Assembly: GCA_016190755.1 (NCBI GenBank) | Contig: JACPPY010000072.1 | Location: forward strand, 1-37,457 | DNA: 37,457 nt | DNA from: Chloroflexota bacterium | GTDB lineage: Bacteria > Chloroflexota > Dehalococcoidia > JACPPY01 | Reading direction: 5' to 3' | Part shown: piece by piece, positions 1 to 6,478 of the stretch | Layout of the letters: each line of letters starts with the position of its first letter | Position numbering within the stretch: position 1 is the first letter of the stretch | The notes under the pieces: generated by a model | Database searches by the model: none | Seen by the model: only the letters and a program-made list of their open reading frames with translations | What the model was told of the DNA's origin: nothing | Translations under genes and position numbers: made by a program

Positions 1-847
1 CCTGCGGCGTCTCGGTTATATCTGGAGTTCGACCCTCTGGCTCATCTCCCCAATGTGCGGAATATTCTCTACCTACTGTAACTGCGGAACTTCGGTTAGC
101 GGCAGGCTGGCCGTTGGCAGCTATACCGGGAACAACACGGATAACCGCTCTATCTCCGGAGTCGGTTTCCAGCCGGAATGGGTTGTCATTCAGCGTACAT
201 CTACTGATCAGGCCCGGCACAAGCTGGCCTCTACCGGGGCAACCAGCGACTATTCCCAGCTATTTGATGTGGTTGCTGACGAAACGAATAGAATCCAGGC
301 ACTGGAGAGCGACGGCTTTCAACTAGGGAACGGCGTTGGTGTGAATGTTAGCAGCACCTATTACTACATCGCCTTTAACCAGATAGCATTGGAGTCCTAC
401 GAGGATTCAGGCCGTACCACCGTCCGGAACACCTATACCAGTAGCTTCAACACCGTCTATATGCATGGCACCGGTTTTGCCAACACAGACTATCTGGTGG
501 CCTACTATGACAACGGCGGGGTAAAAAGAGGGTCGGAGACGCCAAGCGCATCCGGTGGCACACTGAACAGCACCTATCTCCTGACCTCTGATCTGACCGC
601 CGCCGCTGGCACCTGGCATGCCCTGGTTCAGCCCAGCTCCGGCTACACCGGGTTCGGCACAGCCAGCTATGCTACCATCGTAGCCTCACCCGATACCTAC
701 GGTCTACTGGCTAACGACTCCTTCACCGTGGAGAGCTCGGCCATACCGGAGTTTCCCACGGTGGTGGCTGGGATAGCTGTAGCCGGTATGTGCGCGGTAA
801 TCTACTGGTGGCTCAGGAATAGAAGGCTAGCGCATGTCCAAGCTTAG
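1..847 (+). CDS. C-terminal part of a surface protein with a PEF-CTERM-type sorting signal (partial)
   Basis: The frame is open from base 2, so the true start lies outside the window; the ATG at 53 is probably internal. Visible are a YTGNNTDNR/GVGFQPEWVV segment, typical of repeated beta-sandwich modules in large surface proteins, and a second module rich in Tyr, Gly, Ser and Thr. The C-terminus has the tripartite sorting signal: IPEFPT, a hydrophobic helix (VVAGIAVAGMCAVIYWW) and a basic tail (LRNRR). This matches the PEF-CTERM pattern known mainly from archaea, which is recognised by archaeosortases. The exosortase-like gene at 2052 suggests a dedicated substrate-enzyme pair. The protein is inferred to be exported, cleaved near PEF and anchored at the cell surface. 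No enzymatic motif is seen. Confidence is high for the sorting signal and low for the function of the body. Confidence 0.75.
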   Translation, partial: LRRLGYIWSSTLWLISPMCGIFSTYCNCGTSVSGRLAVGSYTGNNTDNRSISGVGFQPEWVVIQRTSTDQARHKLASTGATSDYSQLFDVVADETNRIQALESDGFQLGNGVGVNVSSTYYYIAFNQIALESYEDSGRTTVRNTYTSSFNTVYMHGTGFANTDYLVAYYDNGGVKRGSETPSASGGTLNSTYLLTSDLTAAAGTWHALVQPSSGYTGFGTASYATIVASPDTYGLLANDSFTVESSAIPEFPTVVAGIAVAGMCAVIYWWLRNRRLAHVQA

Positions 848-1208
848 GATAGTATACATGCTTTCGCTGATGGTACTGGCAGTGCTAATCGCGTTCACGG
901 TATTTCGACCCATGGCAACGGGCGGTCAATACAGCGAGGTGGCCAGGGAAAACCTGCTCGAGAGGGAAGACGAATGGATCATCCAGTTCGATATCATCAA
1001 CCGTGAAGGCAAACCCACCGAATACGTTATCAACGTCTCGGTTGCCGGCAAACAATTCAGCGACCGATTTATAATTGCGGACGGCAGCCTGTACACCTAT
1101 GTCTACCACATACGCCGTGATATGTTGGGCTCCGGCGAGGCAACTGTTACCGTTTACAAGGAGGGGGAGAGCACCCCCTTCGAGCAGACAACCTACTATT
1201 TGAAGTGA
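834..1208 (+). CDS. Small membrane-anchored protein, DUF1616-like extracellular domain
   Basis: A 124-residue protein with one N-terminal membrane helix (about residues 4-26) followed by a short beta-rich domain containing EYVINVSVAG and a C-terminal TTYYLK strand. Its ATG lies inside the end of the preceding gene (14-base overlap) with an AAGG about 8 bases upstream, and the CPBP protease gene follows after 4 bases, so it is translationally coupled in the sorting operon. The fold resembles the small immunoglobulin-like domain of DUF1616 and related archaeal and bacterial membrane proteins that sit beside exosortases. No catalytic residues are visible. An accessory role in sorting or surface-layer assembly is inferred from position only. 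Confidence 0.7.
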   Translation: MSKLRIVYMLSLMVLAVLIAFTVFRPMATGGQYSEVARENLLEREDEWIIQFDIINREGKPTEYVINVSVAGKQFSDRFIIADGSLYTYVYHIRRDMLGSGEATVTVYKEGESTPFEQTTYYLK

Positions 1209-1212
1209 AGAT

Positions 1213-2055
1213 ATGGAACGAGATCTGACGCAGACCTCACAGGTAGTGGCCCAGGACGAATACGGCGAGAGGAGACGGATCAGCCCCTGGCAGGCGGTGT
1301 TTATCGCCGCCATAGCTATGGCCATCTCTGCCAGCGAGTACGTCTTCGCCTATCAAAATGTAGCCTACGGCATAGTTATCGCTCTTGCCGTGACCATAGG
1401 AATATACTCCATGCTGTCCATACTGAATTTTGACCGGAGGATAACCGATTGTGGCGAGGTTCTGGCCCTCATTCCCCTGTATATCCTGTTCACGTCTTCC
1501 CTGCCCTGGTTCTTCATCAACCAGGAATACCTCTTGCCGGCGGTGTACTCCTGCATACTGGGCTTATGCCTGTGGCATGTCCACCAGAAAAACATCAGCT
1601 TGAAGAAGACCTTCGGCTTCAACAGGAAAAAGCTGCTGAAGCACCTGCTGATCGGCATAGCCATCGGCATTCCAACGGGGACGGTGGAGTACCTCATCCT
1701 CCGTCCATCTCCTGCCTTCCCTGTCTTCGAGGTGAAATACCTGTTTCGTGACATATCTTATATGCTCATTTTCGTGGGTGTTGGCGAGGAGCTCTTGTTC
1801 CGCGGCTTTATTCAACGAGACCTCGGCGAGGCTTTCGGCTGGAAATGGGGGCTTTTCGGCGCCTCCGCCTTGTTCAGCGTGATGCACCTCACCTGGAGGT
1901 CGGTCCCTGAGCTCTTCTTCGTCTTTGTTGCCGGGCTAATACTGGGAACTCTCTACCTGAGGACCAAGGGCCTGGTGGTGCCGATAATAGCCCACGGAGT
2001 AAACAATGTGATGCTGGTGGCGGTACTACCATATATATTCATGGGGTGGCAATGA
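1213..2055 (+). CDS. CPBP family intramembrane glutamic endopeptidase
   Basis: A 280-residue polytopic membrane protein of the CPBP (CAAX protease/Abi) family. The three hallmark motifs are present: EELLFR at 192-197 (EExxxR), FSVMH with H225 (FxxxH), and HGVNN with H261 and N265 (HxxxN). These residues form the intramembrane active site in this family. At least six hydrophobic helices are visible. The stop codon overlaps the ATG of the exosortase gene (ATGA). CPBP proteases are recurrent neighbours or fusion partners of exosortases, so a role in processing sorted proteins or the sortase itself is plausible. The substrate cannot be deduced from sequence. Confidence 0.88.
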   Translation: MERDLTQTSQVVAQDEYGERRRISPWQAVFIAAIAMAISASEYVFAYQNVAYGIVIALAVTIGIYSMLSILNFDRRITDCGEVLALIPLYILFTSSLPWFFINQEYLLPAVYSCILGLCLWHVHQKNISLKKTFGFNRKKLLKHLLIGIAIGIPTGTVEYLILRPSPAFPVFEVKYLFRDISYMLIFVGVGEELLFRGFIQRDLGEAFGWKWGLFGASALFSVMHLTWRSVPELFFVFVAGLILGTLYLRTKGLVVPIIAHGVNNVMLVAVLPYIFMGWQ

Positions 2056-3008
2056 ACATAGTCGCGGTGAATGGCGTCAAGAGCTGGCTTGAGACAAGGG
2101 CAGCAAGGAAGCTCGTCTTGTGGCTCCTTCTGTCTGTAATGCTGTCCCTGGTCTTCTTCCGGGAGCTCTGGACCAGCCTGCCTACCATGATCTCCCCTGA
2201 CGTGGTACTGGGACAGCAGCGCGCCTCCACCTGGGGAGTACTGGCACTGTGCCTGCTATTCCTCTGGCTCAAGAGGAAGGAGATATGGAAAGGGATCAGC
2301 CGGGAGAGCAGCCTTATCTTTGTTCCCGTAGGATTGGCTTTGGTAGCCAGTGCTGTTCTCATGCCTTCTTACAAGGACTACCTGGTATTCCAGGTTCTTC
2401 TGGCATCGCTGGGGGTGTTTGTCGCCCTCTTCGGGAAGGGCGCCAGGCTGCCCTCCATCGTCCTTGTGATATACGGCTTTGCCGTCTCCTTTCCTATCGG
2501 CGTTCAGCGTTTTCTCGAAGGCCCTTATCAGCAAACGGCCTTCGTACCCCTGACGGGGCTGATGAGGGCCATGGGTTACCCGTTGCGCGTCGACGGGCAG
2601 TGGCTGCATTTCACCAGCACCGGGGGCGAGCCCATCTCCGTAGTCGTAACCATGGCCTGTGCCGGCCCGGCTACCAGGGGAGTGTTCATCGCCTTGTTTG
2701 CCCTGATGATGCTGGACATGCCCCTGTCGCCCAGGAAGGCGGCTTGGCTCTTCCTCTTTGGTGCCGTGGGCACCTGGTTTCAGAACATCATCCGGCTCGT
2801 GTTCCTGATACTGATGGGATACTACCTGGGGAGGAATGCCCTGTGGACGGCGCACTATTGGACAACCTACATACTGTTCCCCCTGTGGTATCTGTTTTTT
2901 GCCTACATCTACTTCCGGCAGGTGGGGCGACCGCCAGGAATAAGGAAGGGCAGGAACCTGAGCACATTACGATATCAAGGAGCTACAAGTGAAACAGAAC
3001 AGGAATAA
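2052..3008 (+). CDS. Exosortase/archaeosortase family transpeptidase
   Basis: A protein of about 318 residues, almost entirely membrane helices. The conserved catalytic set of the family is visible: Cys203 in MACAGPATRG (with Arg209), Arg248 in QNIIRLVF, and His268 in TAHYW. The exosortase/archaeosortase enzymes cleave C-terminal PEP/PGF/PEF-type signals and transfer the protein to a surface anchor. The ATG at 2052 is preferred over a GTG at 2046 because it overlaps the upstream stop as ATGA. The gene lies 1.2 kb downstream of a PEF-CTERM-type substrate. The CAGPATRG sequence is a slightly unusual form of the Cys motif, but the other residues support membership. Family assignment is confident; the subfamily is not. 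Confidence 0.85.
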   Translation: MNIVAVNGVKSWLETRAARKLVLWLLLSVMLSLVFFRELWTSLPTMISPDVVLGQQRASTWGVLALCLLFLWLKRKEIWKGISRESSLIFVPVGLALVASAVLMPSYKDYLVFQVLLASLGVFVALFGKGARLPSIVLVIYGFAVSFPIGVQRFLEGPYQQTAFVPLTGLMRAMGYPLRVDGQWLHFTSTGGEPISVVVTMACAGPATRGVFIALFALMMLDMPLSPRKAAWLFLFGAVGTWFQNIIRLVFLILMGYYLGRNALWTAHYWTTYILFPLWYLFFAYIYFRQVGRPPGIRKGRNLSTLRYQGATSETEQE

Positions 3009-3687
3009 AAGCACAATGTTCAGGCTGGCCATAATCTGGCTGGCAATGTTGCTTCTGGGCAGCTTCTGGCTGACTATCAGGGGGACATCGGACCCGGTGA
3101 GCATGGCGGTCACCCCTCAGGCGCCCAGGGGCGGAGAGCCCATAATCGCCGTCTTCAGGCTAAACAACCCCTCCTCTCAGCCTCTGGTCACCAAATATCA
3201 GTTCTATGCTAATGGCCAGCTTCTCAAGGAAGGGGTCACCACCATAGCTCCTGAGTCGGATAAGGCCTACAGGTACGCCTATAAAAACCCCCTTCAGATG
3301 GGAGAACAGGTGAACTTCGTGGTAAGAACCCAGTCGGAGCGAGGAGACTATGAGAAGGTCCTCTCGACGCCGCCGTATCCACCTCAAGTATGGAGCAGCT
3401 TCGTCAGCTTTGCCACCTTCTCCACATCGGTCATGAGCTCGATGAGCACGATGACGTATTATAAGAGCACCTTCGGTAGCGAGATGGGACTCAATGCAGG
3501 CATTATACTCACCGTAGTTCTCATTATCCTGCTTCTCTTCCTCACGTTGACCCAGCCTGAAGTCGAAGGCAAGGAAGTTGCCAGACTAGGAAGATTGAGG
3601 ATAAGGTTTTCAACCGTGACCTCGATACTGTTCATTGTCTTCATGGGCATCGTTTATACCAGGGTGCTGATGATACTCGGAGCATAG
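2989..3687 (+). CDS. Exosortase-associated three-helix membrane protein of unknown function
   Basis: A 232-residue protein starting at a GTG preceded by AAGGAG, overlapping the end of the exosortase gene by 20 bases. It has an N-terminal membrane helix (about 9-29), an extracytoplasmic immunoglobulin-like domain (about 35-125, with RGGEPIIAVFRLNN), a Ser/Met/Thr-rich stretch, and two C-terminal helices (about 160-180 and 210-230). The topology suggests an outside-facing domain held by the membrane. I recognise no family. Its place as the last gene of the sorting operon, before tandem hairpins at 3708-3782, suggests an accessory subunit. Confidence 0.7.
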   Translation: MKQNRNKSTMFRLAIIWLAMLLLGSFWLTIRGTSDPVSMAVTPQAPRGGEPIIAVFRLNNPSSQPLVTKYQFYANGQLLKEGVTTIAPESDKAYRYAYKNPLQMGEQVNFVVRTQSERGDYEKVLSTPPYPPQVWSSFVSFATFSTSVMSSMSTMTYYKSTFGSEMGLNAGIILTVVLIILLLFLTLTQPEVEGKEVARLGRLRIRFSTVTSILFIVFMGIVYTRVLMILGA

Positions 3688-3707
3688 ATGTTATCCTGAA
3701 GTGCAGG

Positions 3708-3782
3708 GGTGTCACTTCACGACACCCACTGGAATAAGCTGTAGAGTGGGTAGAGTCCTTATCCTATCTGGGCTCTACCCAC
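3708..3782 (+). terminator. Tandem hairpins ending the sorting operon
   Basis: Two stem-loops follow the last gene. The first pairs GGTGTC (3708-3713) with GACACC (3721-3726). The second pairs GTGGGTAGAG (3746-3755) with CTCTACCCAC (3773-3782), a perfect 10-base stem. Only a weak T-run follows (CTGCTTT), so this may be a terminator of low U content or an mRNA-stabilising structure. Confidence 0.5.
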
Positions 3783-3965
3783 CCTGCTTTGACCCGCCGC
3801 CTGGCTGGACAGTGCAGTCGCAATGTACGGCTCCCCTTCAGACCACTTCAAACAGCACGGCCTGTAGAGTTTTTACACGCCTGCCTGTGGAGTTGTTCGT
3901 GCCATATTAATCTGTACAGGTGATCTCAATCTAATCTATCCGGGTGATCTGCTGTCACTGGCCCC

Positions 3966-4183: not shown

Positions 4184-6478
4184 ATGAGTCGTCTAGCCAA
4201 ACTAAACCTGCGTCTCCTAATTCTGTTCCTGGGGCTGACAGTGGCTGCGGCCTTGGCAGTAGCCGCGTGTAGCGGCGCTACAGGCCCCACCGGCCCCGCC
4301 GGACCTCAGGGCGCTGCCGGTATTGTCGGGCCTACCGGACCACAGGGCGCCTCTGGCTCTGCTGGTCCAGCCGGGTCTGCCGGACCCTCTGGCTCCCCCG
4401 GTGTTACCAATGGCTCCGTAAGCGGTGTGGTCACCGATGCTGCCGGCAAGCCGATCGAAAAGGCTTCCGTAAGCACCGACCCCACCTCAACCACAGCCAC
4501 CACCGACAAGGACGGTAAGTTCACACTGAAGGACGTCCCGCCGGGAAGCTACTATGTAGTAGCCTCGGCCACGGGCAAGAATGCCAAGGCCGCCAAGGTA
4601 TCCGTACTGTCGGGCAAGGAAGCCAAGGCGACGCTATCCCTTAAGACGGAAGAGGCCTTCCCGCTGGGTAGCGTGAGGGCCGTCTCCGCCAGCGCTGGCG
4701 ATAATGAGATCTATCCGGACAACAAGTCAGCGATAACGCTCAGTGCCGGGTACGGCACCAGCAACAATAACAAGATCAATACCTCTGGCCTGAACAGCGT
4801 GGGTGTTGGGACCTACGTCTATCTTCAGGGCAAGGCCACTGACCAGGCCGGCGAAAAGATAACCGCCTGGACCTGGACAGTAGCCGGGCCAAGGGAAAAG
4901 AAGGTGACGGTAGAAAATGCCAACACGCAGTTCCCACGCTTCATGGCGGACGAAGCAGGCCGTTATGAAGTGACAGTGAACGTGGTAAAGGAGAAGGGCG
5001 GCAAGGCCTCCTCCGAGTTTCAGGTCACCGCCGGTTCCTATGTCGGCGTGGGGACCTGCGCCACCTGCCACAGCGGCAGTGTCAAGGCGGACAAGGTCAC
5101 CGAATGGGCCGAGACCGGACATGGCAACAAGTTCGAGTTTCAGTTCGGCAGCTACAGCGCGAAGAGCGACTACTGCATACGCTGCCACACCGTGGGCTAT
5201 GACGAAACGGACAAGGCAGGCGGCATGGACGATGCCGCGCGCCTGGCCGGCTGGACCCCAGATAAGGGCAGCGCCCTGGCCTGGATAGCAGAACAGAAGA
5301 TGACCGTCGACGACATCAAAAAGTCGCCCATGGGGAAGTTCATAAACATTCAATGCGAGAACTGCCATGGCCCGGGCAGCACGCATACCAAGGCGTTGTC
5401 CTATGAGCCGGGCGTGTGCTCGCAGTGTCATGGCCAGGAAATTCAGTGGCGGAACTCCGGCCATGCCAAGACCGGCGCGGCGAGCATGCACCAGGCCGAG
5501 GGCGCTTCCTGCGTAGAATGCCATACCGGCCAGGGGTTTGTCGCCGTTAAGATCCGGGGCGAGAAACCCGTCTTCCCCAATATGGAGCGTGAGGGGTTGA
5601 AGGCCAACATACCTGAGCCGGGCAATATGGCCCCGGTAGCCTGTGCCACCTGCCATGACCCGCATGCCCTCAGCGAGCCTTTCAACAAAGGAACGGCCGA
5701 CAAGCCGAACATCGCCTCCCTCCAGCTCCGTATGGAAGGCAAAGTGACCATGCCGAACGGTGCGACAGTAGATGCCAAGGAGTCAGCAGTGTGCGTCTCC
5801 TGCCACGCCGATAAGCGCGACCTGACCTACAAGGCCGACTACCTGGCTGGCAAGTACACCCGTGGCGCCCACGACAATACCCAGTCGGACGTCTTCTACG
5901 GCGTGACCGCCGCGGTGTTCGACCTCGGCGGCGGCAACTACTCATCCTCGCCGCACAGCCAGCTTGTGAAGAACGCCTGCATCGACTGCCACATGGCGGC
6001 GCAACCTAAAGCTCCAGCTGGCGCCAAGGCCGACAACAAGGAGGTCATTAGCTCGCACGGCGAGCTTCTCATGGCCAATGCCGGCGGACATAGCTGGAGC
6101 ATGACCGGCTCTTACCAGGGCAAGGATATAGAGAACGTCGCCGCCTGCGCGAGCTGCCACAAAGACCTGACCTCATTCGACCGTCAGGCCTATGGCGATT
6201 ACGATGGCAATGGCAAGGCCGAGGGCATACAGACTGAGGTCGCCGGCTTGCTCAAGCTGGTAGCCGCCCAGTTACCCAAGGACAAGGACGGCAAGATAAT
6301 ATCCTCGATAACCAAGGACAACACTACCGAGCTTCAGCGCCAGGCACTGTGGAACTACGCGGTCATAGCCAAGGACGGGAGCAATGGCGTGCATAATGCC
6401 GCCTTCTCCGTACAGGTGCTGCAGCGGACCTACAAAGCGCTCACCGGCAAGGCCGTTCCCGGAGCCACCATCAGGTAA
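4184..6478 (+). CDS. Nine-heme c-type cytochrome lipoprotein with collagen-like stalk
   Basis: 764 residues from ATG 4184, chosen because it has AGGAGGT just upstream and begins a lipoprotein signal peptide with the lipid Cys29 (VAAC). The upstream in-frame extension has no signal. Order of parts: collagen-like Gly-X-Y repeats (about 31-75), a carboxypeptidase-regulatory-like beta-sandwich (about 78-155), a PKD/Ig-like domain (about 165-285), and then nine CXXCH heme sites from Cys292 to Cys655 (CATCH, CIRCH, CENCH, CSQCH, CVECH, CATCH, CVSCH, CIDCH, CASCH). It is probably anchored outside the cytoplasmic membrane and passes electrons to or from an external partner. The partner is unknown; no quinol oxidase or porin gene is nearby. 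It converges with a second lipoprotein cytochrome at 6604. Confidence 0.9.
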   Translation: MSRLAKLNLRLLILFLGLTVAAALAVAACSGATGPTGPAGPQGAAGIVGPTGPQGASGSAGPAGSAGPSGSPGVTNGSVSGVVTDAAGKPIEKASVSTDPTSTTATTDKDGKFTLKDVPPGSYYVVASATGKNAKAAKVSVLSGKEAKATLSLKTEEAFPLGSVRAVSASAGDNEIYPDNKSAITLSAGYGTSNNNKINTSGLNSVGVGTYVYLQGKATDQAGEKITAWTWTVAGPREKKVTVENANTQFPRFMADEAGRYEVTVNVVKEKGGKASSEFQVTAGSYVGVGTCATCHSGSVKADKVTEWAETGHGNKFEFQFGSYSAKSDYCIRCHTVGYDETDKAGGMDDAARLAGWTPDKGSALAWIAEQKMTVDDIKKSPMGKFINIQCENCHGPGSTHTKALSYEPGVCSQCHGQEIQWRNSGHAKTGAASMHQAEGASCVECHTGQGFVAVKIRGEKPVFPNMEREGLKANIPEPGNMAPVACATCHDPHALSEPFNKGTADKPNIASLQLRMEGKVTMPNGATVDAKESAVCVSCHADKRDLTYKADYLAGKYTRGAHDNTQSDVFYGVTAAVFDLGGGNYSSSPHSQLVKNACIDCHMAAQPKAPAGAKADNKEVISSHGELLMANAGGHSWSMTGSYQGKDIENVAACASCHKDLTSFDRQAYGDYDGNGKAEGIQTEVAGLLKLVAAQLPKDKDGKIISSITKDNTTELQRQALWNYAVIAKDGSNGVHNAAFSVQVLQRTYKALTGKAVPGATIR

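Follow-up and report, generated by a model that had tools for sequence, protein, structure and literature searches.

A five-gene sortase cassette with a PEF-tailed substrate and a CPBP protease occurs in both Dehalococcoidia and Halobacteriota

The window (the whole stretch of 37,457 nucleotides that was analysed, from a Chloroflexota bacterium of the class Dehalococcoidia) carries at positions 2-3687 five tightly packed genes on the forward strand, which encode a substrate, a small ectodomain protein (P0002), a CPBP protease, an exosortase/archaeosortase and a second ectodomain protein (P0005); neighbouring frames overlap by 4 to 20 bases, apart from one pair separated by 4 bases. The substrate (2..847) consists of a DUF7483-like region (PF24299, 30.9 bits, cut-off 27), an Ig-like pre-tail domain of about 110 amino acids (401..736, YxVAYYD..GTWHAVV..DDSFTV) that is conserved across archaeal and bacterial substrates, and a tripartite C-terminal sorting signal (737..844) made up of AIPEFPT, a hydrophobic helix and the basic end RNRRLAHVQA. 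P0002 (834..1208), the frame of which overlaps that of the substrate by 14 nucleotides, has an N-terminal hydrophobic helix and an ectodomain. The CPBP/Rce1-like intramembrane glutamic protease (1213..2055) has the residues E192, E193, R197, H225, H261 and N265, and its gene is joined by an ATGA overlap to that of the sortase (2052..3008), a member of the exosortase/archaeosortase superfamily with Cys203, Arg248 and His268. P0005 (2989..3687), the gene of which overlaps that of the sortase by 20 nucleotides, is composed of an N-terminal transmembrane helix, a seven-strand Ig-like ectodomain, the strongly conserved segment PPYPPQVWSSFVSFASFSTSVM and further transmembrane helices. An earlier sequence-only reading had proposed a dedicated sortase operon with a Cys203/Arg248/His268 sortase and a CPBP protease in overlapping order; all five frames lie where that reading placed them, the three residues are exactly as it gave them, and the proposal of a dedicated operon is supported. 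The end that it assigned to the locus, position 3782, is intergenic, the last gene of the cassette stopping at 3687. The long hairpin past the operon (3741..3787, forward strand, -30.3 kcal/mol, z -4.7) has no T-run and was not called by the terminator scan; it is possibly the end of the transcript. The gene directly downstream of the cassette (4184-6475) encodes a multiheme cytochrome in which collagen-like repeats are combined with a carboxypeptidase-regulatory domain and a region resembling MtrC. The GC content of the cassette (0.547) is close to that of the rest of the window (0.567), and therefore composition gives no pointer to recent transfer.

The substrate gene is truncated at its 5' end, as the window opens at base 1 of contig C52 (106.8 kb) in a draft genome of 2.09 Mb that is 81% complete, and with the start of the gene missing the signal peptide is not seen. 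The first 99 bases of the window are an exact repeat, the second copy of which lies at the end of contig C94 (4225-4323), so that the assembly break falls inside the substrate gene at a repeat that lies at the ends of two contigs. Because of this repeat, substrate residues 1-32 and any signal peptide are unreliable.

The C-terminus of the substrate reads SAIPEFPTVVAGIAVAGMCAVIYWWLRNRRLAHVQA. The pre-tail domain has 35-48% identity to those of eight other substrates, archaeal ones included, and a model of the pre-tail domain plus tail built from archaea only detects the window substrate at E=2.2e-35. A model built from three archaeal tails alone matched the window tail at E=3.2e-10, no other frame of the window, and none of 2000 proteins with shuffled tails. 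The sequence-only reading had called this tail a PEF-CTERM pattern: the layout (PEF motif, hydrophobic helix, basic end) is indeed present, but the PEF-CTERM model TIGR03024 has no match among the proteins of the same genome, where its controls were also silent, nor among ten substrates, and the described pair of PEF-CTERM and archaeosortase C is not what the locus contains. Among carriers of the cassette the motif varies (PEFPT, PEFST, PEFPS, PELPT, PELPS, PEVPS, PEMPG). The tail is the constant part of the substrate, as genome G158 keeps it with a poor pre-tail domain. A cysteine within the tail helix is common to the window group, genome G340 and three ANME-type archaea, and absent in most other branches. 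The suggestion of a single substrate holds here: a profile search of the 81%-complete genome found one tail only, and a DNA pattern search for further proteins of this type returned 14 other matches, none of which is a C-terminal tail. A second substrate could be hidden in the missing genome sequence; one or two tails per genome are usual among carriers.

The sortase was sought in 393 genomes of the same class and found in 10. A tail model of 39 positions detects a tail in 10/10 of these genomes and gives weak matches in 4 of the other 383 (Fisher p 4.6e-17). Seven of the ten supplied rows to the model; for the independent three (G008, G340, G045) the count is 3/3 versus 4/383, with p about 4e-6 (35 of 9,511,040 draws, calculated by hand), the match in G045 being weak (E 2.2e-4). 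A C-terminal VPEFPS tail also occurs in G149 (L067, 3-143), a genome of the class in which no cassette sortase was detected, and possibly belongs to another sorting system or reflects a gap in the bin. The cassette set recurs, with varying order, in about nine other Dehalococcoidia genomes, and the sources are nearly all draft metagenome assemblies. In G268 the substrate, P0002, CPBP, sortase and P0005 genes stand in the same order as in the window; all five genes are also present in G364, G088 (with P0005 spread over two frames), G073, G054 and L026, and in split or rearranged form in G340 and G045, while in G008 the cassette lies on short contigs and P0002 was not seen. The flanks of bacterial cassettes include GroEL and panB among others, and the neighbouring genes in the window are bacterial. 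In G364 the sortase and a PEF substrate are fused in a single frame of 670 amino acids (L017, 9708-11720), possibly by a one-base assembly error that joined two genes, as an out-of-frame TGATG lies at the junction. Fur-family regulators and two-component receivers adjoin bacterial cassettes (L026, 1532-4256; L029, 6492-6845; L017, 8029-8433 and 11724-12170; L020, 5662-6051). Small genes lie between cassette genes in both domains (L020, 8466-8837; L032, 6241-6639; L031, 834-1139); judged by eye, these presumably encode proteins resembling the four-helix-bundle proteins of 23S intervening sequences.

A scan of genome contigs with an alignment of four sortase sequences found eight loci, of which four (48-53% identity) are archaeal: Methanophagales WYZ-LMO13, two Methanosarcinales bins and Ca. 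Argoarchaeum ethanivorans. Archaeal orthologues with the same gene set are at 51-52% identity. The archaea that share the cassette and its tag are methane or alkane oxidisers. Two of the archaeal loci (L028, L032) are complete, with five genes, the shared pre-tail domain and a SAIPEFPTVIAAIAV tail; another (L031) has the cassette without P0005, and the last (L030) is cut at the CPBP gene. In L031 the gene of a TFIIB-type transcription factor (TFB) lies some 6 kb away from that of the sortase, which identifies that contig as archaeal. A search of the archaeal phylum Halobacteriota found close relatives of the sortase in 12/394 genomes, at 195-450 bits. In three of these archaea (G732, G574, G771) all five genes are present with the CPBP gene in the opposite direction. 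The genes beside archaeal copies include glycan functions (UDP-GlcNAc 2-epimerase, polysaccharide deacetylase, glycosyltransferase, flippase, DUF1616). In the archaeon G480 (L104, 946-6926) three P0002-like genes surround one P0005 gene and a gene for a VPEFP-tailed protein.

The two ectodomain proteins match no family above cut-off. P0002 weakly resembles the C-terminal part of DUF1616, with matches for 6/10 members (best E 9.5e-4) and a score below cut-off for the window protein. The P0005 model was matched in 9/10 of the sortase-bearing genomes of the class and weakly in two others. The predicted structure of P0005 comprises a transmembrane helix, a sandwich of seven strands modelled with fair confidence, and further transmembrane helices for which the model is poor; a fold search with it returned generic Ig-like sandwiches only, with low TM-scores. 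The CPBP protein belongs to the CPBP/Rce1 family, scoring 74.4 bits against PF02517 (cut-off 22.4) with the residues of EExxxR, H and HxxxN all present. The predicted structure of the sortase (pLDDT 61) is too weak for use, and no solved structure is related by sequence to the sortase or the CPBP protein.

The reading that is considered likely is that the cassette is a dedicated sorting island with a sortase subfamily of its own, which has moved between Halobacteriota and Dehalococcoidia. The substrate would be exported and retained in the membrane by its C-terminal helix; the Cys/Arg/His sortase of the cassette would then cut it near the PEF motif and hand it by transpeptidation to a surface or membrane acceptor. 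Transpeptidation is also what has been inferred for archaeosortases. The CPBP protease would probably cut a second time within the membrane, to trim the substrate or to remove the helix that is left behind, and the external domains of P0002 and P0005 would most likely hold the pre-tail domain of the substrate at the enzyme. The computation itself demonstrates the gene set, the catalytic residues, the conserved tail and its co-occurrence with the sortase, the separate clade and the lack of archaeal monophyly; cleavage at PEF and transfer to an acceptor are inferred from the enzyme families, and the roles of the CPBP protease, P0002 and P0005 are likewise inferred. The nearest experimental precedent is ArtA-dependent lipid anchoring in Haloferax (PMC7157517).

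An alternative assignment of the catalytic roles, judged unlikely, is that sorting is carried out by the CPBP protease, a relative of the myxosortases, while the exosortase-like protein plays an accessory part. The myxosortase MrtX is a CPBP protein that has been shown by experiment to be a sorting enzyme (PMC11980579), the CPBP protein of the window matches the myxosortase core NF040914 at 44.8 bits, and the CPBP catalytic residues are kept without change in 17/17 cassette copies, archaeal and bacterial, whereas one sortase (G732; L105, 6622-7596) has Glu aligned at the catalytic His that is found in all other complete copies. However, the score against NF040914 is below the cut-off of 100 and all Mrt cut-offs are missed; in contrast to MYXO-CTERM, the cassette tail carries PEF and its helix is not preceded by a Cys; 19/19 sortases keep Cys203 and Arg248; and five archaeal genomes (L073, L074, L075, L078, L079) have the sortase with no CPBP gene in the stretches that were read.

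The family position of the sortase bears on a second alternative, that this is an ordinary, already described archaeosortase C/PEF-CTERM system sitting in a bacterium. The sortase scores above cut-off with the general models (39.5 bits against TIGR04178, cut-off 23; 45.6 bits against PF09721, cut-off 25.7) and reaches no exosortase subfamily cut-off (XrtV, 27.1 bits; XrtG, 24.8; XrtX, 23.3). The best-scoring specific NCBIfam model is that of archaeosortase C (TIGR03762), with 38.6 bits for the window sortase and 37.7 bits for an ANME-type member, and the PEF motif is common to both systems; but the cut-off of TIGR03762 is 100 bits, a true ArtC, scored in the same search as the ANME-type member, reaches 446 bits with this model, and TIGR03024 matches no substrate. 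In a tree of 46 rows the 24 cassette sortases group in a single clade (support 100/99), outside which lie ArtC in a clade of its own, the XrtA-like rows and the other exosortases of Chloroflexota; a single group of the cassette clade and ArtC is rejected (AU p=0.0066). The grouping with PEP-CTERM enzymes that the sequence-only reading had named as evidence against its proposal was thus not seen. It is very improbable that the cassette is a known archaeosortase C system: the sortase falls into an unnamed subfamily that differs from archaeosortase C and from the exosortases whose models were tried, and the reading preferred here is that the cassette represents a dedicated sortase island of a new subfamily.

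That the locus is a product of chance or a chimera of assembly, with a tail that does no more than anchor the protein in the membrane and a sharing between domains that arises from misbinning, would accord with a contig that opens inside the substrate gene on a repeated sequence and with sources that are nearly all metagenome bins, but is scarcely credible, since more than a dozen genomes have both the tail and the gene set, tail and sortase co-occur across genomes, sortase identities of 26-60% are too diverged for contamination to be plausible, and the flanks fit their hosts, TFB in archaea and GroEL, panB and others in bacteria.

In the 46-row tree three ANME-1/Argoarchaeum rows are sister to the five-member bacterial group of the window (100/96), and this set is nested in one of 11 rows, most of them bacterial (96/87), other archaea being placed elsewhere. 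Archaeal monophyly is rejected by AU tests of the sortase alone (p 0.007), of sortase, CPBP and P0005 concatenated (p 0.0012) and of the 46-row tree (p 0.0009). Because the archaeal members are not one clade, it is well supported that the cassette crossed between the domains at least once. The sequence-only reading had offered transfer between domains or an under-described bacterial branch; both apply, and the sharing between domains, supported by archaeal orthologues with the same gene set and by archaea that are not monophyletic, now stands more firmly than that reading could have known. A simple archaea-to-bacteria direction was set aside, as the nearest archaea nest within bacterial sequences in the tree; that nesting of ANME-1-type archaea favours transfer from bacteria to ANME-1 for this step, a direction suggested by one tree with a weak backbone. 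The tree backbones are weak in general, long branches are present, and single-gene trees of CPBP and P0005 are poorly resolved. The profile scans covered one phylum of archaea and one of bacteria, those to which the hosts belong, and other phyla may have carriers.

A bolder reading is advanced tentatively, with belief tilting somewhat against it: that a two-protease, five-component, single-client island functions with the same parts in the membranes of both domains, and that it reached ANME-1-type archaea from bacteria of the class Dehalococcoidia. It is customary to regard exosortase systems as a bacterial branch and archaeosortase systems as a separate archaeal one. In this case the whole cassette, including the client and two partner proteins, is common to both domains, which raises the question of how one sortase copes with two membrane lipid chemistries, and the system is tractable, a test of it needing five genes and a single client rather than dozens. 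If the bolder reading is true, ANME-1 would gain a surface-anchoring system; the cassette is a candidate sorting system for ANME-1-type archaea, in which a published survey reported no ArtA, ArtC or PEF-CTERM (PMC5244752).

Four known systems may be compared with the cassette. The PEP-CTERM/exosortase EpsH system shares the tripartite tail and an exopolysaccharide neighbourhood of the kind seen around archaeal cassette copies, but XrtA-like rows lie outside the cassette clade, and genomes with PEP-CTERM/EpsH usually have many substrates (median 8; PMC1569441). The archaeosortase C/PEF-CTERM system (TIGR03762/TIGR03024) is alike in its exosortase superfamily enzyme with Cys-Arg-His, in PEF followed by a helix and a basic end, and in its Halobacteriota hosts; the cassette differs, in a comparison of ArtC by models and tree, in missing the curated cut-offs, in its separate clade, in having bacterial hosts too, and in its one or two substrates, CPBP partner and two ectodomain proteins. 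The one-target systems of myxosortase and JDVT-CTERM (MrtX, MrtJ) likewise have a CPBP protease adjoining the sorting target, but have no exosortase, the MYXO-CTERM tag contains Cys, and the cassette CPBP misses their cut-offs. The fusion of exosortase E and protease that accompanies VPEID-CTERM (TIGR04162, XrtE) also pairs an exosortase domain with a CPBP protease, and a 2006 paper had already noted EpsH-like domains fused to CAAX-protease-like ones (PMC1569441); the CPBP protein of the window scores 32.3 bits against TIGR04162, missing the cut-off of 150, and in the cassette the two enzymes are separate proteins, with another tail and other partners.
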